Assembly: GCF_019059575.1 (NCBI RefSeq)
Contig: NW_024881985.1
Coordinates: 124,001 to 188,000 of the forward strand
Source of the DNA: Amphibalanus amphitrite
Taxonomy: Eukaryota > Arthropoda > Thecostraca > Balanomorpha > Balanidae
Length of the DNA: 64,000 nt
Direction of reading: 5' to 3'
Below the pieces are notes generated by a model that searched no databases, was not told where the DNA came from, and was given only the letters and a program-made list of their open reading frames with translations. Position numbers and translations under genes: made by a program. Shown here one piece after another: positions 3,301 through 63,100 of the stretch (within the stretch, counting starts at the first letter, position 1; each line of letters starts with the position of its first letter).

Positions 3301-3400
3301 AGCTCTCGAAGATGGAGAGGTGTGCGGTAGGCTCGTTGACGAACAGGTTCCTTCCCAATGGTGTTGATGACCAGCTGATGACCCCCCCTTGTAGTCTCCG
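1..3400 (-). CDS. Pol part (RT, RNase H, integrase) of the Ty3/gypsy element, approximate limits
   Basis: On the minus strand the region near 2880-2900 encodes the RT catalytic YLDD. RNase H-like sequence lies around 2200-2500. A zinc-binding HHCC-type region (about 1320-1440) and the integrase core follow near 900-1250. The region reads open over most of its length and runs off the left edge. Its distal tail is made of an 11-residue repeat (see the repeat at 1-310). Limits are approximate; the protein functions in reverse transcription and integration of the element. Confidence 0.75.
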
Positions 3401-5139
3401 ATGTCCTCAGGTGACTGGGAGAACACATCACTGTACTCCTGCAGTAACTCGTGGAACAGGGTCCTGTCGTCTGGATCCAGATGGTCCACGGATGGCAGCT
3501 TCGGGTCCCGGCTTCGGTCTGTCTCCTCCTCAGGTTCCTCCAGCGGCTTCCACTCGGTGATGCTCTCCTGAGTCCCCAGCACCGTGCCTGCAGGGATGAC
3601 CACCTTCTCCTCACTCAGGTTCAGGATCCGGACTGGAACGCCCTTGTGAGCCAGGTGCACTGCAGATGCCACACTCACTCCTTCAACTTCTTCTGGGCAG
3701 AAGAGGACAGGTTTCTCTGCTGCCACACGCCTGATGTTGATGAAGGTTTCCGACCTAGCAGCACAGGAGACTTGATTTCTTGTTTTGATGGGCAGCTCAG
3801 TGTTGATTTTCCTGCCACCCACCACCAGGCTGCCAGAGGCACACTCAATAGTAGCCCCCACCTTCTGCAGAATGTCCATTCCCAGTAGAGCTGGATCTGT
3901 GAGGTCACGAACCACCACGAAGCTGGACACGGCTTCCACATCACCGATGTTGACGCAGACTTGTGACCTCCCAACTGTAGTCACGACAGTCCCATTGGCT
4001 GCAATGAAGCGATCCACTGCTGGTTCCACCTTCAAGTGCAGGGAAGACGCCAACTCGTCACTCAGAAGACTGTTCACACTGCCAGTGTCAACAACTGCCA
4101 GAACATCGGCTCCTTCCAGCTGAACCACAGTACGTACCTCAGCAACTGGCTGTTGAGTACCCAGCCGCCTCACTGTCCTTGAAGGGGGACGGGCACTGCC
4201 TGGTGCAGAGGGGCACTGACGACGGTAGTGTCCACGGCCACCACACTGGAAACACTCCACCCCAGCTGAGCTTCTGGGTTGGCTAGTGGGCTCCTCCTGT
4301 CCAGAGGTCACTGACTGCTGAGGCCTTTCCTCTCCAGGGCGAGGACAGGCACTGGCAGAACGACAGTTCACGGCAATGTGACCCACCTTGCCACACCTGA
4401 AGCAGGTTCGCTTCCTGACACCAGCTGCCAGACTTGAATTCGGGTTCACCTTCCTCACCATGATACTGGAGGCTCCCATGTCTTTCTGTAGCTGTTCTGT
4501 TGTCTTTATCTTCTCCAACCTCCGAATTAGTCCTTCCGTCGTGGTCGTTTCACAGTCCAAGAGTCTGAGCCGCCATTGTGAGGGAACTGACCTCGTCAGC
4601 TGTTCAGACACCAGCTGCTCATGACCCTCAGGGCCCAGCTCAGGCATGGCTGCTCGGATCATAGCCTGCAGCTTGGAGACGAACACCCTCGGTTCATCAG
4701 TCAGCGACATTTTCAGCTCATAAAAATCATGCAGGTAAGTTTTACGTTTTTCAGCAGGCATCAGCCTTGCCAATATCTTCTCTTTGGCCTGTGCCAGCGT
4801 TTCTATGTGCTCATCATCCTCTAGTTCTCTTGCAAGCCATTCATGAGTCTCCGAGAAGAGGGCAGGGAGAATGGCTAGCTGACGCTCCTCATCCCACTTG
4901 TTGGCTCTTGCCAGCCTCACAAAGCCTCGCAAGTAACTTTCAGGGTCTTCCCCCAGGTAGCTTTTTGGTTTCATCATCGCACCCTCCATTTTAACAGAAC
5001 AATCAGCACTTTGTTCTAAAGATTTTAACCCACTTGTCACCTTCGGTTCTTCTGGCTCCCGTTCACTTTTTACTTCACTCATCTGCACGTAACGTAAATG
5101 CCAATCTCTTGATTTCTCCTCAGAGTATGGATAATTCAC
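3181..5139 (-). CDS. Gag-protease part of the Ty3/gypsy element
   Basis: The frame starts with a gag-like matrix/capsid region rich in charged helices. Two zinc knuckles follow (CFRCGKVGHIAVNC and CFQCGGRGHYRRQC), then a retropepsin-type protease with the VDTGS active site and a downstream LLGMDIL motif, as in Ty3-group proteases. Gag would package the element RNA and the protease would mature the polyprotein. It belongs with the pol part immediately to the left and is described only as part of the fossil element. Confidence 0.85.
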   Translation of the reverse strand: MNYPYSEEKSRDWHLRYVQMSEVKSEREPEEPKVTSGLKSLEQSADCSVKMEGAMMKPKSYLGEDPESYLRGFVRLARANKWDEERQLAILPALFSETHEWLARELEDDEHIETLAQAKEKILARLMPAEKRKTYLHDFYELKMSLTDEPRVFVSKLQAMIRAAMPELGPEGHEQLVSEQLTRSVPSQWRLRLLDCETTTTEGLIRRLEKIKTTEQLQKDMGASSIMVRKVNPNSSLAAGVRKRTCFRCGKVGHIAVNCRSASACPRPGEERPQQSVTSGQEEPTSQPRSSAGVECFQCGGRGHYRRQCPSAPGSARPPSRTVRRLGTQQPVAEVRTVVQLEGADVLAVVDTGSVNSLLSDELASSLHLKVEPAVDRFIAANGTVVTTVGRSQVCVNIGDVEAVSSFVVVRDLTDPALLGMDILQKVGATIECASGSLVVGGRKINTELPIKTRNQVSCAARSETFINIRRVAAEKPVLFCPEEVEGVSVASAVHLAHKGVPVRILNLSEEKVVIPAGTVLGTQESITEWKPLEEPEEETDRSRDPKLPSVDHLDPDDRTLFHELLQEYSDVFSQSPEDIGDYKGGSSAGHQHHWEGTCSSTSLPHTSPSSRATERETGRSARTGCHRRLYVTLVFTHRDDQEERWWREDLL

Positions 5140-5152
5140 ATCCCACCGCTGA

Positions 5153-5357
5153 TGTTACGTCTTCACGTAATCCTTTTTCGTTTTTATTTTCGAAATCGTC
5201 GTCCCACAACAGTTCCATCGGGCCACGCCCCGTCCACGCCGCTCAACCGCCACAACCATGGCGCACCAACACAAAATAATGGCGCACGCGCTGCCAAATG
5301 CGGCCATATCGACAAAACCCTTTCCGGAGACCGACAAACTATGTCTCTATCGTTACA
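5153..5357 (-). repeat. Candidate 5' LTR
   Basis: This segment lies between the gag start and unique flank. On the minus strand it begins TGTAACG and ends CGTAACA, a near-inverted pair of ends typical of LTRs. The partner LTR is outside the window, so identity of the two cannot be checked. A 5-bp target duplication could not be tested. Confidence 0.35.
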
Positions 5358-17394: not shown

Positions 17395-17681
17395 CTGAGA
17401 AGGAATAAAACGATCGTCAATGAAAGTCGATTGATTTTAAAGATGCGACGCACAAACAACATTCTTCCTACATGGGAGACTGCTGCTCCATTTCACATAC
17501 CACCGATATCAATTCAACGTTCAGTTCAGTTAAGAATAAAACTATCAAGAATCGTCTGCTGTTGCTTCGATATTCGTGAACACTTAACAGACACTTCAAA
17601 CCAGCTGTGAGAAACGCATTGCATATTTCGCATTCAAACGTCGTCCTATCCCTCACTACAAAGTCTACAGCCCCAACAAAC

Positions 17682-18831
17682 CTTCAGTTCCGACATGGCG
17701 TCGTCGTCGGTCGTGATGCCTGTCCTCTCCTCTGCAATCCTCGCCGCTCTCTCCTTCAGCAGCTGACTTCTCATCGGTCTGCGAGCGATGTAACGAGATC
17801 CGTCTGAACGCACCTTTACCCTGTACTGGTACTGCGGCTGCTCGTCCTGACCTCTATTGGCAGGCAGTGTGAGGTTGTGGTTCTGCTGACCGCCGCCAGG
17901 GGAGCTGACGAAGCGGTACTGTCGCAGGGAGCCCGTGAACGGCGAGTTAGCCGGCTGCTGGCTGCTGTTCGGAGCTCTTTCTTGCGTTCGGCGCATCAGC
18001 TGCTGGTAGAGCTGGCGCTGCTGCTGGTGGATGGTTTCCTCCAGCTTTGCTGCGCTGGTGTAGCTGGTTCCCTGCGGCAGAATCGTCACGTAGTTGCGGT
18101 TCTTCTCAGCTGTATTTGCGCTGTTGATATCGTTCTTGTTTTTGGTCGTCCGGGAGCAGTGGCGACACCGTTTACACCGGTCCTCCTTGCTCTCTCCCGA
18201 GCGGGAAGCGCGAGGCGCCGATTCGCGAGTGGGAAGCGTCAGGGCTGACTCTCGCTTCTCGCTTCCCAGGACAGTGAGCTCCAGGGCTACCGGCTGGCGA
18301 CCCGCTTCGCGTCGCTTCTCTCCCGGCCGCGAGTCGCCGCTGCTGCGACTGTCACTGGTAGAGCTTCTACGAGTCCAGGGCTCTGCCGTCCGCATCCAGC
18401 CGGGAAGGTGGTTGACTGGTCGGCCCGAGGGTGGCTCGGGGGGCGATTTAGAGTCGCCGGGCGCTTCGCGAGGCGCTCGCGGCTCGAACGGCTGACAGTA
18501 GAGCGGCTCGTCCGACTCGCCGTCCTCCGGGATCGTCTCGTAGATGTGGTCCTCGATGATCCTCCTACGGGCAGCTCTCTGCCTCCGAGCGAGCGACTCG
18601 CACTCTCGTTGAATCAACGCCATTTGGCTGTGCACCGACCTCATCTCACTGTCGACTGAGAGATCGCCGCGCCTCTGGCGGTCAGTTTGAGAACTACAGC
18701 TTTTAACACTGCCGCTACTAGCGCTGCTGACGCTGCTGGAGCTGCTGTTGGTGCTGCTACTTCTCATTGTGTCTCGCTTCTCCTGGGAGTCTCGCTCGGG
18801 GCCAATGTCCCCTGATAGTGTGTCCACCGCC
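17682..18831 (-). CDS. PDZRN3: PDZRN3/4 large exon (post-PDZ linker and conserved C-terminal block)
   Basis: This 1150-bp exon starts in phase 2 after TTTCAG and ends in phase 0 at donor GTTTGT. It encodes a serine-rich stretch, then a short coiled coil with [19 protein letters not shown], the [18 protein letters not shown] motif, and a long disordered Arg/Ser/Pro region with a CKRCRHC cluster. It ends in the block [16 protein letters not shown]...[17 protein letters not shown], the hallmark of the PDZRN/LNX3 family. PDZRN proteins are cytoplasmic scaffolding E3 ligases; the RING and TRAF-type parts are not in this window. Confidence 0.95.
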
Positions 18832-19813
18832 CTGAAACAGGAAATGGATGGGGTCCGTTAAATCCAGTTAGGGAGTGGCGCGGAGTAAATGGCTCCACCC
18901 GTCGTCGGAATGGAAGTTATTCTCTCTGAGAGAATTAAGTAATTTGCGAGTTGGACACAGCGAGCTGGCTGCTGAGCCGCTGGCCTGAAAGCTATAGCCA
19001 ACGCCGTGTGATGGACTAGGCTGATGGACTAGTCACTGCTAAAGTGACCATCCCACCTTAACATTAGTTTTGAGTTGAGAATTGAGATAGCCAAATTGTT
19101 GGCCATGGCCTGCAAATACCGGTTTGGGCACTCACACCATCGAAAAATGCTTTAATTCGGAGATATGGAATTTCAACCTTGCAGTTTTCGGATTCTAAGG
19201 GGCTAATGCATTGTAATGCCCCCTTAGAATTTGTGACGTCAGCGGAGATCTAACGATTTTTAAATCTTAGACTAAAACCATCGTTAACACGTGGTGGTAT
19301 ACACTATGATACAGTACATATACCAACTCTTTTTTTTGTATACACTGCTTTGCGCGCAACGTCTGCCGCACTTCGAGGCTGCCAAATTATTGCTTCCAAC
19401 TAAGTCGCTAGGAACAGCGGAGATCCCAAAAAGTAAACAAAAGTAAAAGCCTAAAATCTTGAAAACCAGTGAATATTTTTCGGTGAAATTTGGTAGATAT
19501 TCATTTTTGATCTTTCCGAACCAATGGACATCACTTTTATGCCAATTCTTTAAACTTTTTGAAGGTGGGTCTGGGAGGGTCCCTTTAAGATCAACTAGGG
19601 GAACCATTGCGACGACCTGGGTCTGCCGCAAAATATAGTTAACAAATAGGTATATTGTCTTTCTGCGACAAATACATTTTCTTTTTTCTTTTCAAACTGC
19701 CAGTGCGGCTTGTTTACACAAAACACAAAATGTGACGGGCAGACTCAATTACTTATTTAGGACTTAAACCATTTTTAAAATTTGAGCTGAATATTACAGC
19801 ATCAGCCACTTAC
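18832..19813. other. PDZRN intron
   Basis: The intron lies between the 89-bp and 1150-bp exons. It has a 39-bp near-perfect palindrome at 19192-19230 and a duplicated tgatggactag near 19010-19030. No other coding sequence is visible. Confidence 0.6.
19192..19230. repeat. 39-bp intronic palindrome
   Basis: attctaagggg and cccccttagaat flank a palindromic core taatgcattgtaatg. It is a hairpin-forming site within the intron and its origin is unknown. Confidence 0.6.
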
Positions 19814-28441: not shown

Positions 28442-30515
28442 AAAACTCGACATCAAACAGGCGTCGTCACAACTAACCCCTTTATCTATTTCCCACAAAG
28501 GTGCCATCACTGTCTCCCTCTGTCGGGCCCGCTCCTCTGTCCAGCTCTGTGCGGTCCACTCCTTGTTGGTCCACGGATTGTCATTGTCCACACAGAGGGC
28601 CTCACGCCGTCGTCTAACCGTCAATATTTACTGGCGAGATAGGAGGCTTTGGAGTCCCCGCCACGGCATGACGAGACACGTTACGCTGCACCCGTCCCTC
28701 CCTCGCCCTCTCCTCCCCTTCCCTCCCCTCCGCACCCACCCTTCCGCCAGGGAGTCTGAGTTGCTGCACGCGCTCGAGTCCATAGGTCGCGGCCGTGGGG
28801 TCGTTTGCGTCGTTCCACACAGCTGGGGCCGATTGAAGCAAAGAATGCGCATGCTTTCGAGCGTCCCCGTGCACAGCGGAAGTGAAGTGGAGGCGGCGCA
28901 ATGCTTACAGCGGAGCGGAATTGCAAAGCCAGGTGTGTCGGCCTGTTGCAATGATGCAAGGGTCAACATTTGGGGACGGGCTCGGGAGGGCGGGGGCGGT
29001 GAAGGCGAGGCTGGGGGAGGAAGCGGGGGCGGGTAGGCCGGGAGGGGGCGGGGGCAGGGGCGGTTGGCGGTCTAGTCGGCGTGGCGCCCATGACGAGGCC
29101 CCAGGAAGTTTGGCGATAGCGGACAATGATTAAGAGAACATTTGGAACTAACTCATGGGATTCTGTTCAGTGTGCTGGCCTACCCTTCGACTTACGATAA
29201 AGAGCAGATCCAGCAATTCACTACGTAATTGTGATTACACTTTTACTTGATAAGTCTTTTTTCAGGATTTTACTGCTTAAAAAGACAATATCAAACTTGA
29301 AAGGATATGCATTGATTCTGAAATTGGAGTGCAACAGCTCGATAAAGGACAAAGCGAAAAAAATATACCGAATAAGAGCTAAAAGTCGGCAAGCGTGTAT
29401 AGAAAGGGTATCTAACCCGTGCAAAAAACGCCTACGTTGATGTCCTGCAGTTATGCCAGCCTTATGACTATTTGTGGTCAGGTAAGCTTTGTACAACAAG
29501 CTATATTAATCCTGCGTCTCAGAGCGGATTCTCGCAAATAATTACCCCGAGTACTGTTGTGTCGTTAGGAGGCTTATATAAGTTAATCATGAGCGGCAGT
29601 CGCAGAAGACAAATAACCCCACTAACAAGAAAAATGCAAGGATCCTTCAAAGTAATCCTTGTAATCTTGAATAAACGGTGGCTTCCATCAAGTTAAGTCG
29701 GTTGTTCGCGGGGGACAGCTTCTCCAGCCGTAAGCATTCGAGTATGTTAACCAAGCGTGCATGATGAGTTTTGCTGAGGGGCACCGGCCGCCGCCTATGA
29801 GTTGGAATACATAGGCGGCGGAACGGGGGGGGGGGCACTGGCCACCACCGGGGCACCGTTCCCCCTTTGAGTTTGGCATTTTAACATTATGCCCTATGGG
29901 CGTTGCATGGAAAGAATGGGACCAAAAGTCGGCAGTCCCCCCTCCCACCCCCTTATTGAAGGAGTTCCGCCGCCACTGTTGGAAAACCCGATGATCCACG
30001 GACCCGATCATTCAAATTAGCTGTTCACTGACCCTTCCTCCCTCTCCCCCCTTTCTTTACTAATCCTCTCATGCTGTCTCGGTCAAAACCTGGCGGTCAA
30101 ATATCCGGCATTCTTATCATGCCTGCAGCTTCTCCATTCAGGTGAGGACTATAGGCAGATGATACTCGGACTAGGCTTTATGAGCGGTAACGGGCCAACG
30201 TGCACGCCGCACGGCTATAGGCAGCCCGCGGCGCTACAGCGTAACTGACACCGAATGATGTCATAATTCATTATATGTTCTGCACGCAACGAAACTTTAT
30301 CTTCTTGTGCAAGGACATGTGATGTATTTTCAGTTGTGTGCTTTCAACATTCAATACGTGTTTAAGCTTTTGATCAGATTGCTCAAAACTCTGCACAAAG
30401 AAATGACTCAAGAACTGAAGTCAAGCGTCACATACACATACACCTATACACACAGAGCCGGTCGGGGTCTTTCCGCCGTCGGTGCCGCTACCCTGTGCTC
30501 CCTAGCGCGCCGCGG
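26897..30515. other. Stretch without recognised gene (probably PDZRN intron)
   Basis: It contains atcgat-rich sequence near 26950-27040, a (CT)n tract, GC-rich blocks at 28000-28180 and 28680-29100, a small hairpin (ccgccgcctatg/cataggcggcgg near 29790-29823) and a G12 run near 29827. None of the frames here resembles a known protein. The part near 30430-30460 holds a short acatacaca-type tract just after the fusion ORF stop. Confidence 0.4.
28362..28439. repeat. (CT)n microsatellite
   Basis: About 78 bp of pure CT dinucleotide. Overlapping frames are low-complexity and not genes. Confidence 0.97.
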
Positions 30516-32519
30516 TCACAGCGCCCCTCCGGCTCCCTCCACGCTGACTGCTTGGTTGCAAAGGTCTTTGTGGAGGTAGAAGAATATGTATCCGTTTCTC
30601 TGGTGTCCCTCGCCCAAAACTTCGGCCTCGTCGACGCAGCTGACTCGGCTATCGTTATAGCGGTACCAACGGTCCCTGCCGACGCTGTATACGTCCGACA
30701 CGTAGTGTCCGGAGTGCGTGTTGCCGCCGTGGTGGCTGACGACGCTCACCAGTCGGTAGGTAAAGTCGCCGGCCATGTCCGTTGAGCAGAGAGACTGGTC
30801 GTCTTCCACGCAGGACTTCGGGAAATGTACCTGCTCCGAGGCGTCGGCCGGCGCTCCCTCCTCCAGCGACCTCATCATGGCTTCCTTGAGCTCGCGGTCT
30901 TCGCGGGTCCGCGCCGGATTGGACTCGGGGTCGGCGTCCTGCGCTACCAGCTCGGCCTGCGCTGGCGGCAACGGCGGTGGCTCGGCACCGGTCGCTGACA
31001 TGGGACGCGCCGGCGCCGCGGCTCCGGCTGTCACCGGCGATCCGGCGGCGGCGGACTCCGGCGGGCCGGCGCTGGCGGTCGGCACTGATGACGGTCCACA
31101 GGCGGCGGGCGGCGGCGACGGACCCGACCTGGGCGCCTCAGACTCCTCGAAGTCGGAGAGGGTGCACAGGGAAGGCTTCCTGCACTTCCACTCGGGAGGC
31201 CGGGTGACGTCGTCCGCGACATACTCGTTTAGCGAAAGGAACTTCGGAATGTCAACATTGGCACGGATTTTTATCGATTTCCCTCCAAGGAAGGCGTACC
31301 GGTTGAGCTGGAGTATCAGCGTCCTGGGCAGCTGGCTTATTTTGGTGGTGACGCGGCACTCGTCGTGTCGGCAGTGTTGACAGAGCAACTCGCGCCGGTC
31401 AGGCCGCATGCTCAGCCGCAGCGCGTCCAGCAGCGTGGGCGCCTCTGTGCCCTGGTGGTGCGGCACGCTGACAAACCAGCTGATGTTCTCTTGTTGTCTC
31501 AGTACCGTTTCATGACACTTGGTGCACATGTAGCTCTCGATGGTCTGGTACTGAAAGTTGTCTCGCACCGGGTTGTCGGTCGGCCGCTGCGCGTCGATCT
31601 CTTCCTTCAGGGTGTCTAGCAGGCGCAGCAAGAACTCGTTGGCGTCCTGCATCTCGATGCCTCGGAACGCCGGATCAATTTCGGCGAACACGTCGCGTAG
31701 GTCGTTAAGATGGCTAAAGACTGATTTGCTAAGCGCCTTCTGGCGCAGCACCATCAGTTTGGCGACGGCGCGCAGCGTGCGACACTGGTCGCTCACACCC
31801 GGGTCCGAGATCAGGGAGACCATCTCACTAACGAACGGTCGCAGGCCCAGCAGCGACTGCAGGGTGGCGTTCTGATAGCAGGAGTTCCCGTAGTTGGGTA
31901 GGCCGATATGCAGAGGGTCCTTGCCGTCCTTGTCGGAGTCTAGGGGCCGGATGGTCGGGATCAGCTGCAGGTCGCGGCTGTCCGTCTGCGCCTTACCGCA
32001 GTGCAGCTGCAGGCTCTTCCCGCCCTCACTGGACTTGCGCAATGACGACGGCGGCCGCATCTGTTGACTGGCGGCGAACCGCGAGCCGCCGGGGTCGGCC
32101 AAGTCACCGTAGCACCGACGTGAGCCGGCGCTGGCCACCTGCAGCCGCTCCAAGTTTTCCTTGACGGCGCGGTCCGGGCAGCTGGACGCCCGCTCAACCG
32201 ATCGCGACGGTCGCGGACGCCTGGCCTTGGGCGGATGCGGCGAGCCGCCCCCTCGTCGGGAGACATCGCTGAGCCAGCGCGGCGACGGCAACTCGTTCTC
32301 GCGCGCCCGCAGAGGAGACGAGCTCCGCCGCGGCGAGGAGCGCCATCGTGAGCCGCTGTCGTCGTTCTGGTAGCTCTTGCCGCTGCTGTAGCTGGACGTG
32401 GGCGTCGGCACGGAGGCAGGCGCGCCGCCGGCCAACGACTTGGCCGCCTCCGCTGCGGGGCTGGTCGCCAGCGCAACGGCTGGTGGCTTCACACTGGCTG
32501 TGTTGGTAGTTGTATTCAC
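30516..32519 (-). other. USP26/29/37-type deubiquitinase part of the fusion frame
   Basis: Residues 1093-1759 form a disordered linker of about 200 residues and a complete ubiquitin-specific protease domain. The Cys box (GLPNYGNSCYQNATLQSLL), the His box region (SHHGGNTHSGHYVSDVYSV...WYRYND) and the end NGYIFFYLHK match USP37 and its relatives. The UIM (EDRELKEAMMRSLEEG) within the catalytic domain is also a USP37 trait. The N-terminal PH-like domain of USP37 is absent and the LINE protein stands in its place. Vertebrate USP37 is split by many introns; this copy has none, so it may be a retrocopy. Confidence 0.85.
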
Positions 32520-35500
32520 CTGTTGCGGCAGTAGTCCAGATGTTAGTAGGACAGAGGTGGCGTTTCCCCGCATCACGGCAATTGACAGCCGTTGCCAGAG
32601 CCATTCTGTCTCCCGTTTCTCTCCCGACGCAGCGGTCAAACGCGCACCAAGCTCTCGGATCAGGGTTCTGGTTCCAGGGCCGCAGGCACCGCCGGTCTCA
32701 AACGCAACCGGTTCGAAACGATAGCGCTGAGCAAGATCGGCGTACTTGTACCGTTTCCTGACCTCGGCGCCCCGTGCTGCTTGGCCAGCAGCTACAGCAG
32801 CTGACGCAATGTTGCAGTCGGCGAACGTGCTGACACACGTTGCGTCCCACACTAGAGACATGCCGCTGGAGAACGGGTAGAGCGTCATGCCATCTGGGCG
32901 CTTTCCGTCCCCACGGTCCAGACCGATGGGCTCGAGTAGAGCAGGGATGTTGGCTGAGAGCAGAGCTCGCCTGAGCACGTCGTTCAGTGCTGTGTGTCTG
33001 GGATGCCTTCCAGCACTGTAGCGACAGGTCAGTGAGTGATAGCCCAGGCCATCTGCCAGTGAGCCGCATCTGCAGCGATGAGGGCTACACACTGCGGCTC
33101 CCACACGCAAAGCGATCGAAATCCGCAGCGTCTCGTTATTCAGTAGCGTACCGATGGTGGCTGACGGTATGGCACGCAGCCAGGCTCCACTTTCAGGAGT
33201 TGCTGCACTCAGCATTCGAGCACGGGCAAATTGATTTGCCTGCGAGAGCAGGGAGTCAAGATGACGCTCGGCTAAGGGAGAATCCCATGCTCTCTGATGG
33301 TTTTTGGCCTCACCATCTGGAGCCGATCTGTCCCCGGCTTTGCTCTGCCAGACCTCTGTCACTTTTGCTCGTTCTTGCATGACAGAGGCGGTGCATGCGG
33401 TTGGCAGCAGTGCACAAATGTTCAGCTGACTGCGGTGCAGTGAGGCCACGTAACTAGGCAGAGCTACATCTTCTGTTCGCCTGAGCCCAATACCGCCATA
33501 CCTGACTGGCAAGACCGCCTGTTCCCAACTGGCATCATCAAATCTGACATTGGTCAGGCCAGCCAGTGAAGACTTGAGCTTCTTGTCGATCATCTGCAGC
33601 AGGTCAGGCTGTTCATACAGGGGGGCGGCTCTAAGAAGATACTGCAATTTCGGCAGCCAAAGACAGTTGCAGAGCAGAAAGAAGGCGCTGTGTGCGTCAA
33701 GGTGGTGGAGACGCTCTATCATGAGGTCCAGTTCCTCCATTTTCTTCGCCATAACTGCTCGGGCAGCAGTGTCCGTGATGGGAGCCCCGAGAACCGTCAG
33801 CTCGGCGTCGGGCACAACGGGGGCGCGCGGGAGCAGCTGGTGGATCTTGCCTACCGCTGAGACCCTCTGCTCGTCTGTGGCAGTTGAAGGTAGGATAATC
33901 TCACACTTAGCCGGATTTATGTCGAGACCAATTTTTGCCATGTCTGTGGTCAGTTCTTTCAGATCCGCGCAGATGGTGCTGACCTTCCCACCGAGGGTAC
34001 CGTCATCGAGATACCAGCAGTTGAAGGGCGCGGTCGCAGCGCTGATCACTTGTTGCACTGCCAGGGAGAACACTGCCGGACCACAGGGGTCACCCTGCTG
34101 CAGACCGGTGGCGGAGGAGATCTCGGAAGTGCCGTAGAACAATGGTGTGGGCTCACTGTATGCCTGCCATAGCAGGTGGTACATTGATGGCGCACTCTCC
34201 CTTACTCGGCGCAGAAAATGGTCGCGGCGAACCGTGTTGAAGGCGTTCTTCATGTCAATTTTTACCATGACACTTTCTGTTCCGAGCGAGCGGCTGAAAG
34301 CCCGTGTTGCATGGGCAGCTGCTTCGCATCCTCCTTGCGTACCGTATCCCAGCTGCGTGGGCCTCAGCTGTTCGCCCACTTCAGCGCTGAGGGGTCTCAG
34401 GGCGAGTTTGGCCGCCAACCTGCGGTAGGTGCAACCAACAGCGATTGGTCTCACACCACCGTCTGACTTGCGGAGTGCCGTTAGCGCTGCTCCAAAGAAG
34501 GCGGCTCGTGCTGAACGAGGCAACTCGCCGCTGAGCGCCATATTGACGAGGGCCGTGAGGGCGGTGATCAGTCGCACGCCGGCCTCTCCTGCCGAACGGC
34601 TGGTCAGGTCCTTGAGGTGAGCCGGTCGCAGACCATCCAGTCCAGCACTAGAGCCGGTATCGAAGGAGTTAATCGTTGTTCTGACCTCCGCTTCATTAGC
34701 AAAGTAGGGCTGTGTCCCTGCGTCGGGAGGAGGAGGCATGTTCAGGTCAGACGGAGCGGGCGGGTGTTTAAGTTTTAAGCTCTCTGCGACGTCCGTTGAG
34801 TTTTGCACAATTTCTTCACTGGAAGCCAACATCCTTATTGAACCCTGTATATCTCCGTCTGACAATTTGGCTGCCACCTTTCTCTGCAGGATCTCGCCGG
34901 ACATTTCCGCTGGTCGGTGACGTTCCATCTTGCGATGGACAGTTCCGTTTCGGTTGGGGCCTGCAGCAGCCGCTGAAGCTCTCTGAAGGCTGGAGTCGGA
35001 ATCCATATACATAGAAATCTGTCGCTTTACTTTTGCTGTCAGTGTCGAGCTGTCAGCAGAAGCCTGGTGTGTACTTGGCAGATGAAGCGCCAGGAACGCA
35101 AACAAAAACAGTCTCGTCCATGCTGCCTCATTTTTTTCTCCCACAGCCGTCTCTATGAGGGTTGCCAGGGCACCAGCAGCTTGAATTCTGGCTCCCCTCG
35201 GGATCCTTCGAACCACTGGGCGCGTCTGCTTGAGGTTAGCCAGTTTGAGTGCCAGATCACCGCCGTCGCAGATGGTCGTAGCAGCAGCTGGCGATTGAAC
35301 CGGGTCGGCCGGCGGGCACGACACCTCCGCTGACACCGATGGGTCAGCATTGGAGGCACCGGCAGAGCACTGCGAGGGGCTACCGCTGGTGAAAATGCAT
35401 TCAGGGCACCACCAGCAGGGTAGGACGTCGGCCTGCGCCCGTTTGAGACGCACGCACGTGAGGTGCCAGTGGCGATTGCAGGACTTGCATTGGATACGCC

Positions 35501-35795
35501 GCTTCCGTTTGTTTGTGGTATCGCAACGGGGGCAGGCTGTGCAGCGCTGCAATTCCTCGGTCTGCTGGTGGCTCTGCTGCTGGCTCTCTGGGCGGGTCTC
35601 GCTTGGGCCTGACTTGGCGGCAATCCACTTGCCACTGACGGGGTCGAAACCAGCGATATGACAGTCCGAGTCGTCATCGTCGGAAGTTGCGTTCATTTTG
35701 CATATGTGTCGACCATTGTTCCAATTTGTGCTCCGATCCAATAGGCGCGGAGTTAAAGGCTTTTTCATTTCTGATAATGAAATGACAATATGCAT
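30516..35795 (-). CDS. PHD-reverse transcriptase-RLE-USP fusion protein, 1759 codons
   Basis: One uninterrupted frame. Residue 34 (MNATSDDDDSD, start codon at 35694-35696) is the likelier start; the first Met is at 35795. In order it carries: a PHD finger (residues 88-133, C4HC3); RT with GLDGLRPAHL near 380 and YLDD at 595-598; a CCHC-like cluster near 910-925; and a restriction-like endonuclease with PD at 967-968 and D984. From about 1093 there is a Ser/Arg/Pro-rich linker, then a USP domain: Cys box GNSCYQN with C1306, zinc pairs C1424/C1427 and C1472/C1475, a UIM near 1632-1647, His box SGHYVSDVY with H1697, and N1714/D1715. The C-terminal half is visibly richer in G+C. It could be an element that captured a deubiquitinase, a host chimera, or two adjacent units sharing a frame by chance. 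Confidence 0.85.
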   Translation of the reverse strand: MHIVISLSEMKKPLTPRLLDRSTNWNNGRHICKMNATSDDDDSDCHIAGFDPVSGKWIAAKSGPSETRPESQQQSHQQTEELQRCTACPRCDTTNKRKRRIQCKSCNRHWHLTCVRLKRAQADVLPCWWCPECIFTSGSPSQCSAGASNADPSVSAEVSCPPADPVQSPAAATTICDGGDLALKLANLKQTRPVVRRIPRGARIQAAGALATLIETAVGEKNEAAWTRLFLFAFLALHLPSTHQASADSSTLTAKVKRQISMYMDSDSSLQRASAAAAGPNRNGTVHRKMERHRPAEMSGEILQRKVAAKLSDGDIQGSIRMLASSEEIVQNSTDVAESLKLKHPPAPSDLNMPPPPDAGTQPYFANEAEVRTTINSFDTGSSAGLDGLRPAHLKDLTSRSAGEAGVRLITALTALVNMALSGELPRSARAAFFGAALTALRKSDGGVRPIAVGCTYRRLAAKLALRPLSAEVGEQLRPTQLGYGTQGGCEAAAHATRAFSRSLGTESVMVKIDMKNAFNTVRRDHFLRRVRESAPSMYHLLWQAYSEPTPLFYGTSEISSATGLQQGDPCGPAVFSLAVQQVISAATAPFNCWYLDDGTLGGKVSTICADLKELTTDMAKIGLDINPAKCEIILPSTATDEQRVSAVGKIHQLLPRAPVVPDAELTVLGAPITDTAARAVMAKKMEELDLMIERLHHLDAHSAFFLLCNCLWLPKLQYLLRAAPLYEQPDLLQMIDKKLKSSLAGLTNVRFDDASWEQAVLPVRYGGIGLRRTEDVALPSYVASLHRSQLNICALLPTACTASVMQERAKVTEVWQSKAGDRSAPDGEAKNHQRAWDSPLAERHLDSLLSQANQFARARMLSAATPESGAWLRAIPSATIGTLLNNETLRISIALRVGAAVCSPHRCRCGSLADGLGYHSLTCRYSAGRHPRHTALNDVLRRALLSANIPALLEPIGLDRGDGKRPDGMTLYPFSSGMSLVWDATCVSTFADCNIASAAVAAGQAARGAEVRKRYKYADLAQRYRFEPVAFETGGACGPGTRTLIRELGARLTAASGEKRETEWLWQRLSIAVMRGNATSVLLTSGLLPQQVNTTTNTASVKPPAVALATSPAAEAAKSLAGGAPASVPTPTSSYSSGKSYQNDDSGSRWRSSPRRSSSPLRARENELPSPRWLSDVSRRGGGSPHPPKARRPRPSRSVERASSCPDRAVKENLERLQVASAGSRRCYGDLADPGGSRFAASQQMRPPSSLRKSSEGGKSLQLHCGKAQTDSRDLQLIPTIRPLDSDKDGKDPLHIGLPNYGNSCYQNATLQSLLGLRPFVSEMVSLISDPGVSDQCRTLRAVAKLMVLRQKALSKSVFSHLNDLRDVFAEIDPAFRGIEMQDANEFLLRLLDTLKEEIDAQRPTDNPVRDNFQYQTIESYMCTKCHETVLRQQENISWFVSVPHHQGTEAPTLLDALRLSMRPDRRELLCQHCRHDECRVTTKISQLPRTLILQLNRYAFLGGKSIKIRANVDIPKFLSLNEYVADDVTRPPEWKCRKPSLCTLSDFEESEAPRSGPSPPPAACGPSSVPTASAGPPESAAAGSPVTAGAAAPARPMSATGAEPPPLPPAQAELVAQDADPESNPARTREDRELKEAMMRSLEEGAPADASEQVHFPKSCVEDDQSLCSTDMAGDFTYRLVSVVSHHGGNTHSGHYVSDVYSVGRDRWYRYNDSRVSCVDEAEVLGEGHQRNGYIFFYLHKDLCNQAVSVEGAGGAL
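32520..35696 (-). mobile_element. RLE-type non-LTR retrotransposon (R2/R4/NeSL-like), ORF part
   Basis: Residues 34-1092 of the fusion frame make up a full-length single-ORF LINE protein. It has an N-terminal PHD-type zinc finger, RT with YLDD, a CCHC-like knuckle and a C-terminal endonuclease of PD-(D/E) type (KRPDG, then WDATC 16 residues on). This single C-terminal nuclease separates it from APE-type LINEs. The likely native end is near GNATSVLLTSGLLPQ. No stop follows; the frame runs on into the USP part. Untranslated regions, 3' tail and target duplications could not be identified. All catalytic motifs look intact, so the copy is young or under selection. Confidence 0.82.
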
Positions 35796-35999
35796 GTATA
35801 CAGAGGTCTATGCCATATGGCATAAACGTACAGACAATTGTAAACCGTGGCATACGACTTGGATGGAAGGAAAAAACATTACCCGCTACGTTAAAAACTG
35901 GAGCTACATCTGAAAGTGCCGGAAAAAAGAAAATTGTTTACTCTGGTCTATACTTCCTCTAAGATACCCATCACGTAGTGTTAAAACCATTAGCCGGGA

Positions 36000-36245
36000 C
36001 CCTGCACGGAAGCCGACCCGCGTCCTTCGGGCCTGATTGCCGCATTTTACGTGCGAATTGGACAGGCGGCGGCGGCGGCCATATATGGACACCCAGCGGC
36101 TGGCAGCCACACCCCTAGTGGACCCCCCGGGGGCGAACGGGCCCGGCTCGGGAGCGTGACCTTGACCGTGACCTTGGTCGGCGGAGTGGCGACCGGCAGA
36201 CGAGGAAGTACTGGGGTGACGCGTCCGCCGGGCGGCCGTTTATAG
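36000..36245 (-). promoter_or_regulatory. CpG-rich candidate promoter upstream of the fusion frame
   Basis: This GC- and CpG-rich block starts about 200 bp upstream of the fusion frame. It contains a perfect CArG box CCATATATGG (36079-36088), the core of an SRF site, and two TGACCTTG sites (36157 and 36169). The first reads TCAAGGTCA on the minus strand, a consensus FTZ-F1/ERR monomer site. No TATA box was found. It could be the promoter of the fusion frame or of an unseen gene on the plus strand. Confidence 0.35.
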
Positions 36246-37079
36246 CTCCCTAGCAATGGAGGCGTTCAATGTAAATCCAGTGTTGTAAATGGCACCGTGG
36301 AAGATATAACGTGTGGGAGGCATAAAAATGGCATGATGCTGAGAATACAGAGCTGCCAAATTAAAGTGGGTGGTTAGAAGTAATTCATTACCGCGATAAA
36401 GCACGTGATTACTATAAACCCAATAAACCCAATACAATAAACCCGAACCTGAACACATTTGATCTGACATCTTGACCAAATCCGAAGCATCTCTGCTAAT
36501 GGATTGTGTCAATCGCAACAATTAAATCTTATATTAATACAAAACATAATAATGCGCTAATAATAGCAGCCGTGATACGACAAATGCAGGCACTATAGCA
36601 TGAGCACAATTGATTGCATGATGGCTGATTAGTGACCAGTTCAATATTTTAAAAAGAACTGCGTCGTCAGTAAGTGACAACATGATAGATCTGCAATGCA
36701 TCATGCAGCCCAGCCCAGACGACCACGTCCGCTTCCTCTCTACCGTGACTGTCACCCCTCTACCTCTCCCTCTCTGTATTCTCCCTCCCTCTGCACCTCT
36801 GGACGCGCTGCGAATCCCTCCCGCCTCTTGCCACCCACGGAGGAAGGAAGACAGCAACCAATCGTCAATGGCAGACACGTAAATACGAGACCATATCTGA
36901 GGGGCCAGCGACGCGCACCCTTTGAAGGCAGGCCGTAAACAGCCTGGCTGGCCGGCGTGGTCAGCATGTCTGAACAGGCACGGAGACAGGACTGGACGGA
37001 CGGGGAGGGGGAGGGGACGGAGCATTGGTGGACGTCCACCATCGTCCGTATACTCGAGCACGGACGATGGTAAGCGAAG

Positions 37080-37134
37080 GACGGTGGACAGTGGACGGTG
37101 GACGGTGGATGGTGGACTGTGGAGTGTGGATGGG
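37080..37134. repeat. Short GTGGAC-type tandem repeat
   Basis: About eight degenerate copies of a 7-bp unit (cggtgga) occur head to tail. Confidence 0.75.
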
Positions 37135-37784
37135 ACGACATACAACAGATAGACCTGAGGATACCAGGCGCTGGGCAGCGCTGGGCAGTGGGAGACGTAT
37201 GTGTTTTTGATGCCGAACTGTATGTACACATCGCAGTGAAATTGCCAGGTTTTCATTGCGCCATTTAGATAGAATTTTTTTTTTTATCACTTGAGTCGTT
37301 GCAGTCGTAAGTCTGCTCAGAATCACCCAAAACACGTGTGCGGATATGCCCTGACATGTTTTACAACTTCCGTGATCGAGTTGAGATAGCTGATTCTACT
37401 CGTACTCACATAACATGGGGAATCTGGTGAGGTCCTGCTTTCTCGAAATACGTATGCAATATGCATTTTTATTCCCGCAGATGCAAGACCTTATAGCGAA
37501 GGCCAGTGAGTACGTGGTTATGGTACGAAAAGGCCATCACCGCAATATTTCATAATAAGCTCAGTCAGCATATCACATCAGGTTAAACAGGAAGAATGTG
37601 CAGCTCGTCCTAACGTAATTCCATGAGCAATTCTACACATACCAAATCGTTGTCGATTTTTGACTGACGATGCTTGACAGATTTGTGTTCTACACGATGC
37701 AAACATCCCTTATAATCGTACAGAATATGGCAATTAGATTTTCCTTAAAAAAAATAGGTAAAAGTAAAAGCACAATATTTATAT

Positions 37785-38046
37785 TAGTGATGTCAATTAC
37801 GGAAAATCGGAATACCGATACCAAACCAAATACCAACCAAAACCGTGGAGAAATACCGAAACCAAACCAACTTGGGAACATGAGGAAAATACCAACCTCT
37901 TACCGATTTCTTAGCCTCTTAAACATTAGCGACGGTTCATGATACCAACAAAATACCAAACACATTAGGATTGAAATACCAAATACCGAGTTGGTATCGG
38001 TTTGGTATCGGTATACCAAAGAGTTGGTATCCGATTGACATCTCTA
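37785..38046. mobile_element. Small hAT MITE, 262 bp
   Basis: It starts TAGTGATGTCAAT and ends ATTGACATCTCTA, an inverted pair typical of hAT. It is flanked by a perfect 8-bp duplication ATTTATAT (37777-37784 and 38047-38054). The subterminal regions carry many copies of accaaatacc and ggtatcggt. There is no coding capacity. Confidence 0.93.
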
Positions 38047-41000
38047 ATTTATATCGGTCAGTCGGTCAGTGGTCAGTAGGTAATTGGTCACTGGGTGACG
38101 AGTCAGGGGGCTGGCATGCAGTCAGGCGAGTGGGTTAGCAAGTAATCAAAGAGGTAAGTCACCGGTCGACCCCTGTGCCACAATGCACCCGTATATTATG
38201 CAGAGGAGGCCGTCGCTCGGTCATGGTCAGCCTGGGAGCCGGCGGGAGTCTTCTCCCACGAGGCTAAGTGGCCCTGTCGCCCGTGGGTACCTTGATTATT
38301 TGCTGGGTCAGAGGCCGGTATTGCTTCATTATGTACCGACTTGATTTGACAACAAAGCATTAGGACCATAAGTATGCCACTAAATGGTTTTGCAGTACGG
38401 TATATCATCGTAAAAAAATGGCATGCAGTGAAAAAGTAACATCATGATTATATCGATCGTTGATAGTTGATACAATGCCAACTTTTTGCCCAGACGCAAC
38501 GTTACATAGAAGCCTAGCCACACTGAAAACCTCTCCACATCTGTCTGTTCGGTCCCATTATCCTCCCTACCAGCCCCTCCCATCCTGTCAGCACTTGAGC
38601 CACCCATCGTCCTCGTCCACAGCTGCTGTGCCGGTCCCCAATGGAGCACAAAAGCAAAAGAGCACGGGAGGGTCCCTTCGACTACCGACCCCCACCCCCA
38701 AACAACACACATGCCCTATCGACGATGGCGTGCATTGTCATTGCCGGCGCGGGTAAGGGAGAACAGGGGAGGACAGGGGACAGGGGGAGGGCGGGACAGA
38801 AGCAGGTGTCCCCTAAATCACGACCACAATCAGCGATAAATGGTGCTTAATTTGTGGTCAGAGGGGAGGGCCGACAAGCCGGACGTAACGGCCATTCATG
38901 GCATGGGCCGTAATTGCTCAAACGTTAGGCGGGAGTGGCTATGATTTGGCGTGGTGCCGACAAAGTAAAACGTCGTTTTCCGAGCGTGTAATAAGTCATG
39001 TTTGTTTGGACAACAACCCAATCCCAGCAGGCAACTATGAAACTGCCGTTGGTGCATAGAATGATGAAGCGAATACGTCGGTCGGTACTTTTTTGTTACC
39101 TGTACAATCCGCTGAAAATGCAGCCACAGCTTCATCTCAACCACCTGTTTACACTTCACTGGCACACCGTGCTCTTTCCTAAACTCAGCAGCGCATAACG
39201 GACCATAACTCTGCGGAATTCGTCTGGCACCTGTCATCAGTTCCCGGCAGGTTGAAAAATCACCCCATGACCTCCAATAAGGCCCTGCCTTATCCCGCCA
39301 CCACCTGTCGGGCTACGCGGCGCATTCTACCTCCCAGCACGGGTCAGAGAAGGGTCAACCGGTGCTGCCGCCGTCCCATCTCCCAGCCGCTAGAGATACC
39401 ACAAATAGGCGCCTTCAGGCAGCGGCCAAATACCGCTAGACGAGGTAATTTCTCCGCGCATCATCAGCATAACTGCATCTCATTTCGGCCGAAAACTAGA
39501 GGAGCTTTGTGGGGCGGTCGGAGAGTCGATGGAGAGCCAAACTCGGCAAAATTACGCGGGATAAATAGGGTGGTTTCTTCTATGTTCAAATGAATTCATC
39601 TCGTTGACAGGACCGGAAATAATTTCAACAGCAATATTCCGCAACCTCAACCAACCCGGTAAACACCTTGGAATCTGGGGTTTGGTATAGTGCTTGGGTC
39701 GTTCCCAGGCATTGATCCAGCCTGTCACAGTTGCTGAGTTATCCACTGAAGGCATATCAAGATGACTACCGCTTCACTTCAGGCAGCTACAGATCTACAG
39801 ATCTACAGATGAGAGTGCGCTGACATTGACGTCGAAGAAGCGGCCTAGCTCTCCGCTTCAGGCTTCAGCCGTCGCTCAAAACGGCTTGAGCTGAGAGTTC
39901 ACTCCGCGGAAGAGCAGACTCATCCTGGCGCATTAGTGAGCCGGATTTATATATCACGAACGGTATATAGCGTCACGCCACCTTTCGGGCCAATGTGGAA
40001 CGCTAATGGGAGTTACAACGCTGTCTGCCCGCCTGGGATCCGGCACTCTAATGGAGGCTCTCTGAGCTGCCTGAAACGAGATAAATGTACGCGATTCTCT
40101 GTGAGATGTTGCTTACGAAGACTGTTGGTCTATGCCCAGTGTCCAGTGAGTTTTGATTTCTTTTTTTTTTCGCATTTCATCGCTTGTTTGTTCATGCATG
40201 ACGACGGAAACTGCCAGGTCATAAATGGTACAGCATCAGACAAGGCTAGCACGTTTTATTGCTGTTCATGAGCTCCAGTGGTATCATCAATGCGCTTTTT
40301 ATGGCAGTGACGACGGCAGTCACTATCCGACCATGGAGAAAAACACGGGCCCGCTGCCACACTCCCTGTCATTTCAACCAGACTAGTATGATTCAATCAG
40401 CATGTTCCGGCCGGTTATTACAGTAATCTACCCCGGGCACTGATAAGTAATCGGGTGCATTTCGACACACAACACCGCGTTTGCATTGTCATCAGCTCAC
40501 CACAGATCATTCCGCAACACGCCATTCAAACGGGAAGCTTCTGCTGAACATTGCAATTATGAGTCATACGGCATAATTGGAACATGGCACAAGAGCAATG
40601 AGCTACGTCTTGTTGCAGTCATCTGTTTGTTTTGAACGAACAGCAGGTACTCGCAAAGGTGATGAGTGCATCAACATACGAAAAAATCAAACCACAGAAT
40701 GGTCGGTAAATCAAGAAAATGACATTTTCACAGACAGTTACAAACAAAGCGGAAGAGAGATATCAATCTTCATGTGACATTATACCCATTGAATAAGAGT
40801 ACGCCAATTTCCACTTGATTTAGTAAAGGAACAACAGTTACGTAATTCAAATGATACGCATTTATATGGAGCACTCAGCGCATGATAACGTCAATTCATT
40901 CAGTCGGGTCATAAGTTCACCAAGTCATACACGCTTGGTATATCTAACTGAACAAAACAATTGCACGCCGCTATGACATTGCAGTACCACGAAGGTTTCC

Positions 41001-60156: not shown

Positions 60157-63100
60157 CCGGATTCAGCCCAGATTCGGGACAGCTCTGATCAAGCTGAACT
60201 CTCACACAATGTAGGCCATGACTGCCCAATCCACAGTTAAAGTCTTCGTGGCACTCCCAGCCGTTTGACCCTACAGAGGTCAGCAAGGTCACGTGGCCCA
60301 AATTTGCACAGCAGATTGTGGCCCACCCAGTAGAGGTAGAGCGCTAAAAATGGCACCAATCGACTCGCCAGCATCTAATCTTACTTTCCAACCACTCATT
60401 TGACCTCTCAAGGTCATGCGATGACCAAAGGTCATTTGTGGGCTATGTCGAAAATACACTTGCACAGCAGTTTTCGAGTAGATGGATTGACCGAATTCCA
60501 AATCAAAGCACATCAGCGGGTAGCCCATAGGCCGTAGTAACTTTCCTTAAAAACCGCTTTTCGATATGTGACCCCGTTTGACCTCGGCAGGTCAAAATGT
60601 GCAAATAAACGACACTCAATACGTCACAGCCCGGATTCAGCCCAGATTCGGGACACCTGCGATCAAGCTGAAACTCGCACACAATGTAGGCCATGACATG
60701 CTCAATCCACAGTCCAAGTCATTCGGTGGCACTCCCAGCCGTTTGACCTACAGAGGTCAGCAAAAGTCACGTGGCCCAAATTTGCACAGCAGATTGTGGC
60801 CCACCCAGTAGAGCTAGAGCGCTAAAAATGGCCCCAATCGACTCGACAGCATCTAATCTTACTTTCCCAACACTCATTTGACCTCTCAAGGTCATGCGAT
60901 GACCTAAGGTCATTTGTGGGCTATGTCGAAAATACAATTGCACAGCAGTTTTCGAGTAGATGGATTGACCGAATTCCAAATCAAAGCACATCATCGGGTA
61001 GCTCATAGGCCGTAGTAAATTTCCTTAAAAACCGCTTTTCGATATGTGACCCCGTTTGACCTCGGCAGGTCAAAATGTGCAAATAAACGACACTCAATAC
61101 GTCGCAGCCCGGAATCAGCCCAGATTCGGGACACCTCCGATCAAGCTGAACCTCGCACACAATGTAGGCCATGACATGCCCAATCCACAGTCCAAGTCAT
61201 TCGGTGGCACTCTCAGCCGTTTGACCTACAGAGGTCAGCAAAGGTCACGTGGCCCAAATTTGCACAGCAGATTGTGGCTTACCCAGTAGAGCTAGAGCGC
61301 TAAAAATGGCACCAATCGACTCGCCAGCATCTAATCTTACTTTCCCAACACTTATTTGACCTCTCAAGGTCATGCGATGACCTAAGGTCATTTGTGGGCT
61401 ATGTCGAAAATACACTTGCACAGCAGTTTTCGAGTAGATGGATTGACCGAATTCCAAACCAAAGCACATCATCGGGTAGCCCATAGGCCGTAGTAACTTT
61501 CCTTAAAAACCGCTTTTCGCTATGTGACCCCGTTTGACCTCGGCAGGTCAAAATGTGCAAATAAACGACACTCAATATGTCGCAGCCCGGATTCACTCCA
61601 GATTCGGGACACCTGCGATCAAGCTGAAACTCGAACACAATGTAGGCCATGACATGCCTAATCCACAGTCCAAGTCATTCGGTGGCACTCTCAGCCGTTT
61701 GACCTACAGAGGTCAGCAAAGGTCATGTGGCCCAAATTTGCACAGCAGATTGTGGCTTACCCAGTAGAGCTAGAGCGCTAAAAATGGCACCAATCGACTC
61801 GCCAGCATCTAATCTTACTTTCCTAACACTTATTTGACCTCTCAAGGTCATGCGATGACCTAAGGTCATTTGTAGGCTATGTCGAAAATACACTTGCACA
61901 GCAGTTTTCGAGTAGATGGATTGACCAAATTCCAAATCAAAGCACATCAGCGGGTAGCCCATAGGCCGTAGTAACTTTCCTTAAAAACCGCTTTTCGATA
62001 TGTGACCCCGTTTGACCTCGGCAGGTCAAAATGTGCAAATAAACGACACTCAATACGTCGCAGCCCGGATTCAGCCCAGATTCGGGACACCTCCGATTAA
62101 GCTGAAACTCGCACACAATGTAGGCCATGACATGCCCAATCCACAGTCCAAGTCATTCGGTGGCACTCCCAGCCGTTTGACCTACAGAGGTCAGAAAAGG
62201 TCACGTGGCCCAAATTTGCACAGCAGATTGTGGCCCACCCAGTAGAGCTAGAGCGCTAAAAATGGCCCCAATCGACTCGACAGCATCTAATCTTACTTTC
62301 CCAACACTCATTTGACCTCTCAAGGTCATGCGATGACCTAAGGTCATTTGTGGGCTATGTCGAAAATACAATTGCACAGCAGTTTTCGAGTAGATGGATT
62401 GACCGAATTCCAAATCAAAGCACATCATCGGGTAGCCCATAGGCCGTAGTAATTTTCCTTAAAAACCGCTTTTCGATATGTGACCCCGTTTGACCTCGGC
62501 AGGTCAAAATGTGCAAATAAACGACACTCAATACGTCGCAGCCCGGATTCAGCCCAGATTCGGGACACCTCCGATCAAGCTGAAACTCGCACACAATGTA
62601 GGCCATGACATGCCCAATCCACAGTCCAAGTCATTCGGTGGCACTCCCAGCCGTTTGACCTACAGAGGTCAGCAAAGGTCACGTGGCCCAAATTTGCACA
62701 GCAGATTGTGGCCCACCCAGTAGAGCTAGAGCGCTAAAAATGGCACCAATCGACTCGCCAGCATCTAATCTTACTTTCCCAACACTCATTTGACCTCTCA
62801 ACGTCATGCGATGACCTAAGGTCATTTGTGGGCTATGTCGAAAATACACTTGCACAGCAGTTTTCGAGTAGATGGATTGACCGAATTCCAAACGAAAGCA
62901 CATCATCGGGTAGCCCATAGGCCGTAGTAACTTTCCTTAAAAACCGCTTTTCGCTATGTGACCCCGTTTGACCTCGGCAGGTCAAAATGTGCAAATAAAC
63001 GACACTCAATACGTCGCAGCCCGGATTCAGCCCAGATTCGGGACACCTCCGATCAAGCTACAACTCGCACACAATGTAGGCCATGACATGCCCAATCCAC

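Follow-up and report, generated by a model that had tools for sequence, protein, structure and literature searches.

Ubiquitin-family proteases occur in a few mobile elements, and to our knowledge their role in transposons is unproven. Among long interspersed nuclear elements (LINEs), the Dualen/RandI elements contain an OTU-like protease domain. Here we describe a 64,000-nucleotide stretch of the genome of the barnacle Amphibalanus amphitrite (contig NW_024881985.1, positions 124,001 to 188,000, hereafter "the window"), in which one open reading frame (ORF) joins a LINE protein to a ubiquitin-specific protease (USP) domain. It resembles Dualen/RandI as a LINE with a deubiquitinase-like domain and differs in fold, OTU there and USP here. 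According to the excerpted text of PMC4640811, Dualen/RandI elements also differ in having both apurinic-like (APE) and restriction-like (RLE) endonucleases. The same excerpt presents the NeSL/Utopia elements, which are likewise of the restriction-like endonuclease (REL) type and encode a single protein with zinc fingers, reverse transcriptase (RT), REL and a ubiquitin-family protease; this protease is Ulp1-like and N-terminal in Utopia-1_TSP and nematode NeSL (PMC4640811), whereas the USP of the window protein is C-terminal and comes in several types among its relatives. No Ulp1 model was among the four Pfam matches of the window protein at E 0.1. The Ginger1 DNA transposons, as far as excerpts of PMC2836005 treat them, have a C-terminal slot with alternative OTU or Ulp1 domains, and one carries a PHD finger; they differ in possessing an integrase-like transposase instead of a LINE protein, and no USP is listed in those excerpts. 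The same excerpts mention a Trichomonas vaginalis protein with Transposase_11 and peptidase C19, likewise a USP-family domain on a mobile-element protein, which differs in being a protist DNA transposase represented by one protein, with no exchange of USP types mentioned there (PMC2836005). A limited literature search found no report of a LINE with a USP domain. A LINE with a ubiquitin-family protease is thus known; at this locus the enzyme family is another one, it occupies the other end of the protein, and it appears exchangeable.

The window very probably holds a copy of an REL-type LINE whose single protein carries at its C-terminus a USP of the element's own, within a lineage carrying an exchangeable C-terminal deubiquitinase cassette. 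It is also likely that at least four USP types have entered the slot that follows the endonuclease and passed from one RT lineage to another, in what would be a repeated re-arming against the ubiquitin system of the host. That the cassette differs between LINE lineages, and seems to move among them, goes beyond what a single sequence could reveal. The mobility of the window copy and the enzyme activity of its USP are presumed from sequence.

The ORF lies on the minus strand and reads from 35795 to 30516; frame 1 of the plus strand over the same stretch contains many stops. Counted from stop to stop, the longest open frame has 1763 codons against 150-228 in ten mononucleotide shuffles of the window, and a chance open frame was therefore rejected. 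A preliminary description of the locus had proposed a single 1759-codon frame with an RT (YLDD), a PD...D endonuclease and a USP, uninterrupted by a stop or obvious intron. The ORF, the Pfam matches and the motifs agree with that proposal, and a hidden intron or stop between the LINE and USP parts is not needed, as the frame is open throughout. The PHD finger named in the same description was located, and it passes the Pfam cut-off in three relatives (P0002, P0007 and P0041; relatives are the 76 proteins from three protein searches, cited by P-numbers) and stays below it in the window protein itself. In the endonuclease region, C908, C910, C924, R933, H934, P967-D968 and D984 are invariant columns in an alignment of 20 proteins, the PDG being residues 967-969. 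No Pfam model matched residues 905-1060, which we take from the PD..D motif to be an REL. Kinship with REL-type retrotransposons is indicated by 63% identity between the window protein and an A. amphitrite protein named 'SLACS', and P0004, P0011, P0012 and P0017 match solved R2 proteins in a PDB sequence search; in the window protein's own search, the 60 matches listed are all USPs.

The USP domain is complete and its catalytic core is confidently modelled. PF00443 is covered whole (profile positions 1-254 of 254), and the Cys, His and Asn/Asp boxes, zinc pairs and ubiquitin-interacting motif (UIM) of the preliminary description were all located, as the putative triad Cys1306-His1697-Asn1714, CTKC at 1424, CQHC at 1472 and a UIM-like stretch. 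An AlphaFold2 model of residues 1241-1759 reached a mean pLDDT (predicted local distance difference test) of 67.9, with core blocks mostly at 80-93, and a pTM (predicted template modelling score) of 0.64. In this model the UIM-like region is part of a long helix (residues 387-405 of the folded piece). With the model as query, the best 50 of 694 Foldseek matches were all USP structures, with template modelling (TM) scores by target up to 0.81, the first-ranked being the SAGA histone deubiquitinase module. The label "USP37-like" is reasonable on the basis of sequence and should be read with some caution. It draws on the UIM-like stretch, on grouping with a crayfish USP (P0035, at 31% identity, in a record named CWF19-like protein 2) and on an automated NCBI name; the PDB sequence search ranked no USP type clearly first for the window USP (USP8 58 bits, USP21 and USP47 54), and the comparison set contained no USP37 besides P0035. 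UIMs inserted in the catalytic domain are presumably a USP37 trait, and the window USP has one UIM-like stretch. In place of the N-terminal PH-like domain that we take to characterise the USP37 subfamily, the N-terminus is a LINE protein.

Table. Features of the fusion ORF (window coordinates; residues numbered from its ATG).
Feature	Residues	Position	Strand	Remarks
Whole ORF: LINE protein, linker and USP		30516..35795	-	1759 codons, ATG to TGA
N-terminal 87 residues		35535..35795	-	matched from Met34 onward by the 90%-identical P0044
PHD-like zinc finger	88-133	35397..35534	-	Pfam PHD E 0.009, under the Pfam cut-off in the window
Reverse transcriptase, RVT_1	442-641	33873..34472	-	Pfam E 5.5e-20
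YLDD catalytic motif	595-598	34002..34013	-	L596, D597 and D598 invariant in the alignment of 20 proteins
Zinc knuckle and restriction-like endonuclease region	905-1060	32616..33083	-	motif only
RGNA motif	1076-1079	32559..32570	-	close to the LINE protein end in tail-less relatives
Ser/Pro/Arg-rich linker	1090-1285	31941..32528	-	pieces common to P0006, P0011 and P0015
USP (peptidase C19) domain	1297-1740	30576..31907	-	Pfam UCH, E 1.6e-47; AlphaFold2 model and Foldseek
Catalytic Cys codon (predicted)	1306	31878..31880	-	Cys box of USP
UIM-like stretch within USP insert	1632-1646	30858..30902	-	sequence EDRELKEAMMRSLEE
Catalytic His codon (predicted)	1697	30705..30707	-	GHY at 1696-1698
Third triad residue, Asn codon (predicted)	1714	30654..30656	-	17 residues past His; Asp in P0042

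The fusion is not confined to the window. Of the 76 relatives, 13 (P0001, P0003, P0004, P0005, P0007, P0010, P0011, P0012, P0013, P0015, P0017, P0034 and P0042) combine portions of this LINE protein with a USP, in the order LINE then USP and with UCH above the Pfam cut-off in 13 of 13; 22 of the 76 were scanned directly and the other 54 judged by the Pfam annotations in the search results. Apart from P0042, which is the chimera of the window itself, 12 fused protein clusters remain. An RVT_1 match is absent in P0015, which begins at the YLDD motif, and in P0042, the gene model of which drops RT pieces. Two of the 76 have a USP and no LINE part, namely the crayfish P0035 and P0075, a fish USP42. 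All 13 USP starts parsed from fused proteins, that of the window among them, show the Cys box (the gene model of P0042 passes over it), and all nine fused USPs that extend far enough have the His box. Tail-less relatives indicate where the LINE protein would usually end, as 13 of the 14 proteins P0019-P0032 stop 22-42 residues past the start of the RGNA motif; the exception, P0021, does not contain the motif. The window lineage continues beyond RGNA; among the 21 rows caught by the motif pattern, which missed P0008, tail length ranges from 68 to 882 residues. Five proteins near the window (P0038, P0039, P0040, P0044 and P0050) have frames that stop before the tail and are uninformative on it.

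Other shared segments were noted at both ends of these proteins. P0008, P0009, P0014 and P0037 carry past RGNA a non-USP tail motif of the approximate form YRxxxxEM + (A/D)DP(D/E)LA(R/Q)YL, of which P0037 holds the second half only, as found by BLAST, and the tails of P0014 and P0016 both carry LAP(Q/R)EF(D/E)IPWG(E/Q)(I/L)FGAR; no Pfam match fell on these shared tail motifs. P0001, P0009 and P0010 begin with a hydrophobic stretch, after which comes a 2A-like GDVExNPGP motif, and their N-termini resemble in this the LINEs with 2A-like N-terminal signal sequences of PMC4981915. The window differs from those LINEs, as a strict pattern found no 2A motif in its six frames, and no USP appears in the excerpted text of PMC4981915.

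At least four USP types (USP37-type, USP8/15-like, USP2-like and USP35-like), and possibly two more, occupy this one slot. In PDB sequence searches the USP of P0004 was nearest USP2 (211 bits versus 157 for the next type), that of P0005 was clearly nearest USP35 (154 versus 67 bits), and that of P0007 had USP35 as its sole match, at 1e-8. The USPs of P0003 (USP8 234 versus USP15 221 bits) and P0010 (191 versus 187) are only slightly nearer USP8, and the two group together in the USP tree with a support of 99/99. The same tree, which leaves out P0011, P0012 and P0042, unites the window, P0001, P0013, P0015, P0034 and the crayfish P0035 at 100/99, and the five without P0035 at 89/84. For P0011, with 69 USP residues, and for P0017 the PDB search gave no USP type; by best match the USP start of P0011 is not USP37-type, and we suspect a USP16/45 type for P0011 and a USP10 type for P0017. 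The short USP start of P0012 (62 residues) matches USP4, USP15 and USP2 in the PDB about equally well, and among the fused proteins it is nearest that of P0004.

The RT and USP trees are in conflict. A 60-row RT tree was built that omits six proteins by choice (P0033, P0035, P0042, P0073, P0075 and P0076), four for coverage (P0044, P0050, P0069 and P0070) and seven as short (P0038, P0039, P0040, P0046, P0052, P0067 and P0068), and 23 of its rows were picked for a focused tree. With these 23 rows the RT data reject, by the approximately unbiased (AU) test, a single clade for the five USP37-type carriers (p 8.7e-4) and the pairing of P0003 with P0010 (p 3.9e-5). The pairing of P0004 with P0012 is rejected as well (p 1.5e-6), though the label under test is weak, because the type of P0012 comes from 62 residues about equidistant from three USPs. 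P0013 pairs with P0034 by RT (98/98) and with P0015 by USP (100/99), and each data set rejects the partner chosen by the other, the USP data P0013+P0034 (p 2.4e-4) and the RT data P0013+P0015 (p 0.02). The RT sisters P0004 and P0011 (100/99) are unlike in their USP starts. As to identity with the window, the best USP blocks reach 76% in P0013 and 71% in P0015, with RT blocks at 45%, and the best blocks of P0001 are 60% identical in the USP and 71% in the RT. Over the whole USP domain the identity to the window is 63% for P0013, 61% for P0015 and 53% for P0001. Short stretches of the linker are also shared, with P0011 (40%, E 4e-8), P0015 (54%) and P0006 (64%, E 0.005), and the match to P0011 exists despite its USP start being of other than USP37-type. 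These sequence comparisons support an exchangeable cassette, which may have arisen by swapping from element to element or by repeated capture of conserved host genes.

It is a fair possibility, if a less than probable one, that the cassettes were captured independently from host USP genes each time, without any exchange between elements. The USP types match distinct animal USPs, the USP37-type group adjoins a crayfish USP, and conserved host genes could mimic a high USP identity; no barnacle host USP37 for comparison turned up in the three protein searches. What speaks for exchange is the difference between USP and RT identities of P0013 and P0015 to the window, together with the fact that the linker pieces are common to elements too.

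A near-identical version of the window fusion exists in the databases. P0042, an A. amphitrite protein that NCBI calls 'ubiquitin carboxyl-terminal hydrolase 37', matches the window in blocks of 93-99% identity that cover RT, endonuclease, linker and USP, and is thus the same LINE+USP chimera. Its gene model lacks everything before codon 359 and omits four internal stretches (codons 485-579, 765-926, 1200-1308 and 1482-1570), the catalytic Cys1306 falling in the third of these; we take the model to be wrong, because all the codons it skips are open in the window. An assembly error at the junction was rejected, as the join is repeated in P0042. Three of 474 residues differ in the LINE part (one at a model edge), none of 110 in the linker (codons 1090-1199) and 9 of 336 in the USP, plus one 1-residue gap; an extra 25-residue block at a mis-spliced edge adds five differences, for a USP total of 14 of 361. 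Four of the nine USP differences cluster in codons 1706-1716 (about 30648-30680), possibly through gene conversion, and the cluster includes the third triad position, Asn in the window and Asp in P0042. A second sequence, P0044, is 90% identical to the window (610 of 675 residues, RT part only).

The junction lies near 32520, at about codon 1092. LINEs insert from the 3' end of their RNA, and one that simply landed upstream of a host USP gene would for this reason keep its stop and 3' untranslated region (UTR). Neither is seen between RT and USP in the window, and the other fused proteins have no stop there either. The USP part is unbroken by introns in the genomic DNA of the window, whereas in the barnacle Pollicipes the mean exon is 241 bp, with 7.48 exons per transcript (excerpt of PMC8917513); most likely, then, the USP passed through RNA.

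Several observations weigh against a mobile LINE with a USP of its own and should temper the interpretation. First, 12 of the 13 fused relatives are seen as proteins only, and any single one of them might be a chimera of gene model or assembly. Secondly, the tail holds no recognisable USP in 8 of the 23 focused-tree proteins, and P0041, of the sister pair P0018/P0041, ends 19 residues past the RGNA motif. Thirdly, the USP data do not reject the grouping of the window with P0001 as in the RT tree (p 0.19), nor that of P0013, P0015 and P0034 (p 0.18), so that a swap of the window's own cassette is not shown by itself. Moreover, the USP labels show some clustering when placed on the 60-row RT tree (10 changes, a number as low in 18 of 200 shuffles), and exchange is consequently not free. 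Within the window ORF, the LINE and USP parts differ in synonymous codon usage (p 2e-6), the two halves of the LINE part do not (p 0.92), and the GC content at third codon positions (GC3) is 0.60 in the LINE part, 0.83 in the linker and 0.79 in the USP, which argues against the two parts having evolved together for long in this copy; the join may be recent, by swap or by host capture. The divergence between the window and P0042 is likewise larger in the USP than in the LINE part. Finally, no target duplication was found as an exact repeat of at least 11 bp between 28501-30515 and 35796-38500, and the four 10-bp matches between these flanks are at chance level (4.9 expected).

As to how such an element would arise and work, the LINE protein reaches its usual end at RGNA and then, with no intervening stop or 3' UTR, goes on into a flexible linker and an intronless USP. 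We propose that the slot has been filled by different USPs, captured or swapped several times; the most likely route of capture would be LINE RNA that read through into a USP transcript or was spliced to it, or else template switching, in each case followed by retrotransposition. The tethered USP would strip ubiquitin off its own protein or ribonucleoprotein in cis, and the protein would thereby escape the proteasome for long enough to complete target-primed reverse transcription. We give about an even chance to self-protection of this kind, in which the USP shields the element's own protein from ubiquitin-dependent degradation. The USP types in this slot presumably have different natural substrates, and since they share the slot, general ubiquitin cleavage looks more important than any one host target. 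In the mouse, TEX19.1, probably together with UBR2, brings about the ubiquitination and degradation of L1 ORF1p (excerpt of PMC5570191), so that ubiquitin pressure on LINE proteins exists in at least one animal. A LINE+USP family would make a counter-move against ubiquitin control of LINE proteins testable: the varied USP types in one LINE slot amount to a natural swap experiment, in which the common property, ubiquitin cleavage near the RT, would be what the element needs.

More doubtful is a role in trans on chromatin, in which the USP and the PHD finger would deubiquitinate histones or repair factors at the target and so aid integration. A PHD-like finger in the same protein and the SAGA module as first Foldseek match would suit such a role, the latter with the qualification that the best 50 matches are all USPs, and transposon ubiquitin-family proteases may act on DNA repair factors according to an excerpt of the Ginger1 paper (PMC2836005). 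Against it, P0041 has a PHD finger without a USP, and the presumed variety of substrates fits general self-deubiquitination better.

We consider it improbable that a host gene of the USP37 type, or a retrocopy, became fused to a LINE ORF and is now maintained by selection as a barnacle gene. The preliminary description had offered both options, a LINE that gained a USP module and a host USP37 with a LINE-derived N-terminus; the 12 other clusters, with several USP types in the LINE+USP order, and P0042 argue for the first. In favour of the second are the NCBI name of P0042, the near identity of the aligned parts in the two sequences, and a codon usage and GC3 of the USP unlike those of the LINE, the USP value being nearer that of the one host-like ORF measured (0.71) than that of the LINE (the LTR element described below has 0.55 in gag and 0.67 in pol). 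Also on this side, no further LINE or USP piece was found in the window at E 1e-3 with 35 query proteins. The RT and endonuclease motif residues are nevertheless intact, P0044 supplies a second 90%-identical sequence (RT part only seen), and the NCBI model looks artefactual in its start and in skipping the open codons around Cys1306. On the reading of a LINE with its own USP, the A. amphitrite 'USP37' entry is a case of a database mistaking a LINE+USP chimera for a host gene.

A mere accident of neighbourhood, with a LINE upstream of an unrelated USP gene and an open join by chance or assembly error, would agree with the shift in codon usage at the join and with the DNA of one copy only having been read, and is very improbable indeed. 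P0042 and the repeated occurrence of the fusion refute it for the most part. Linker codons 1090-1199 are unchanged in a P0042 that differs elsewhere, linker pieces recur in P0011, P0006 and P0015, the frame is far longer than in the shuffles, and the LINE stop and 3' UTR are missing.

Scans of IMG/VR and GTDB genomes gave 65 and 147 pattern matches, none encoding a relative, an outcome to be expected since the element is of animal origin. Rfam at the gathering threshold and ARAGORN found no match in the window, and hence no RNA-gene target was seen. Elsewhere in the window, two long minus-strand frames at 3-5154, cut by the window edge, read like the gag (with CCHC knuckles) and the RT/RNase H/integrase of a long terminal repeat (LTR) retrotransposon, as named by eye. 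A minus-strand open frame of 403 codons at 17646-18857 looks like the end of what we take to be a PDZRN3/4-type E3 ligase. Positions 60157-63523 hold a satellite of 478-bp units in 7.1 copies that are 96% alike.

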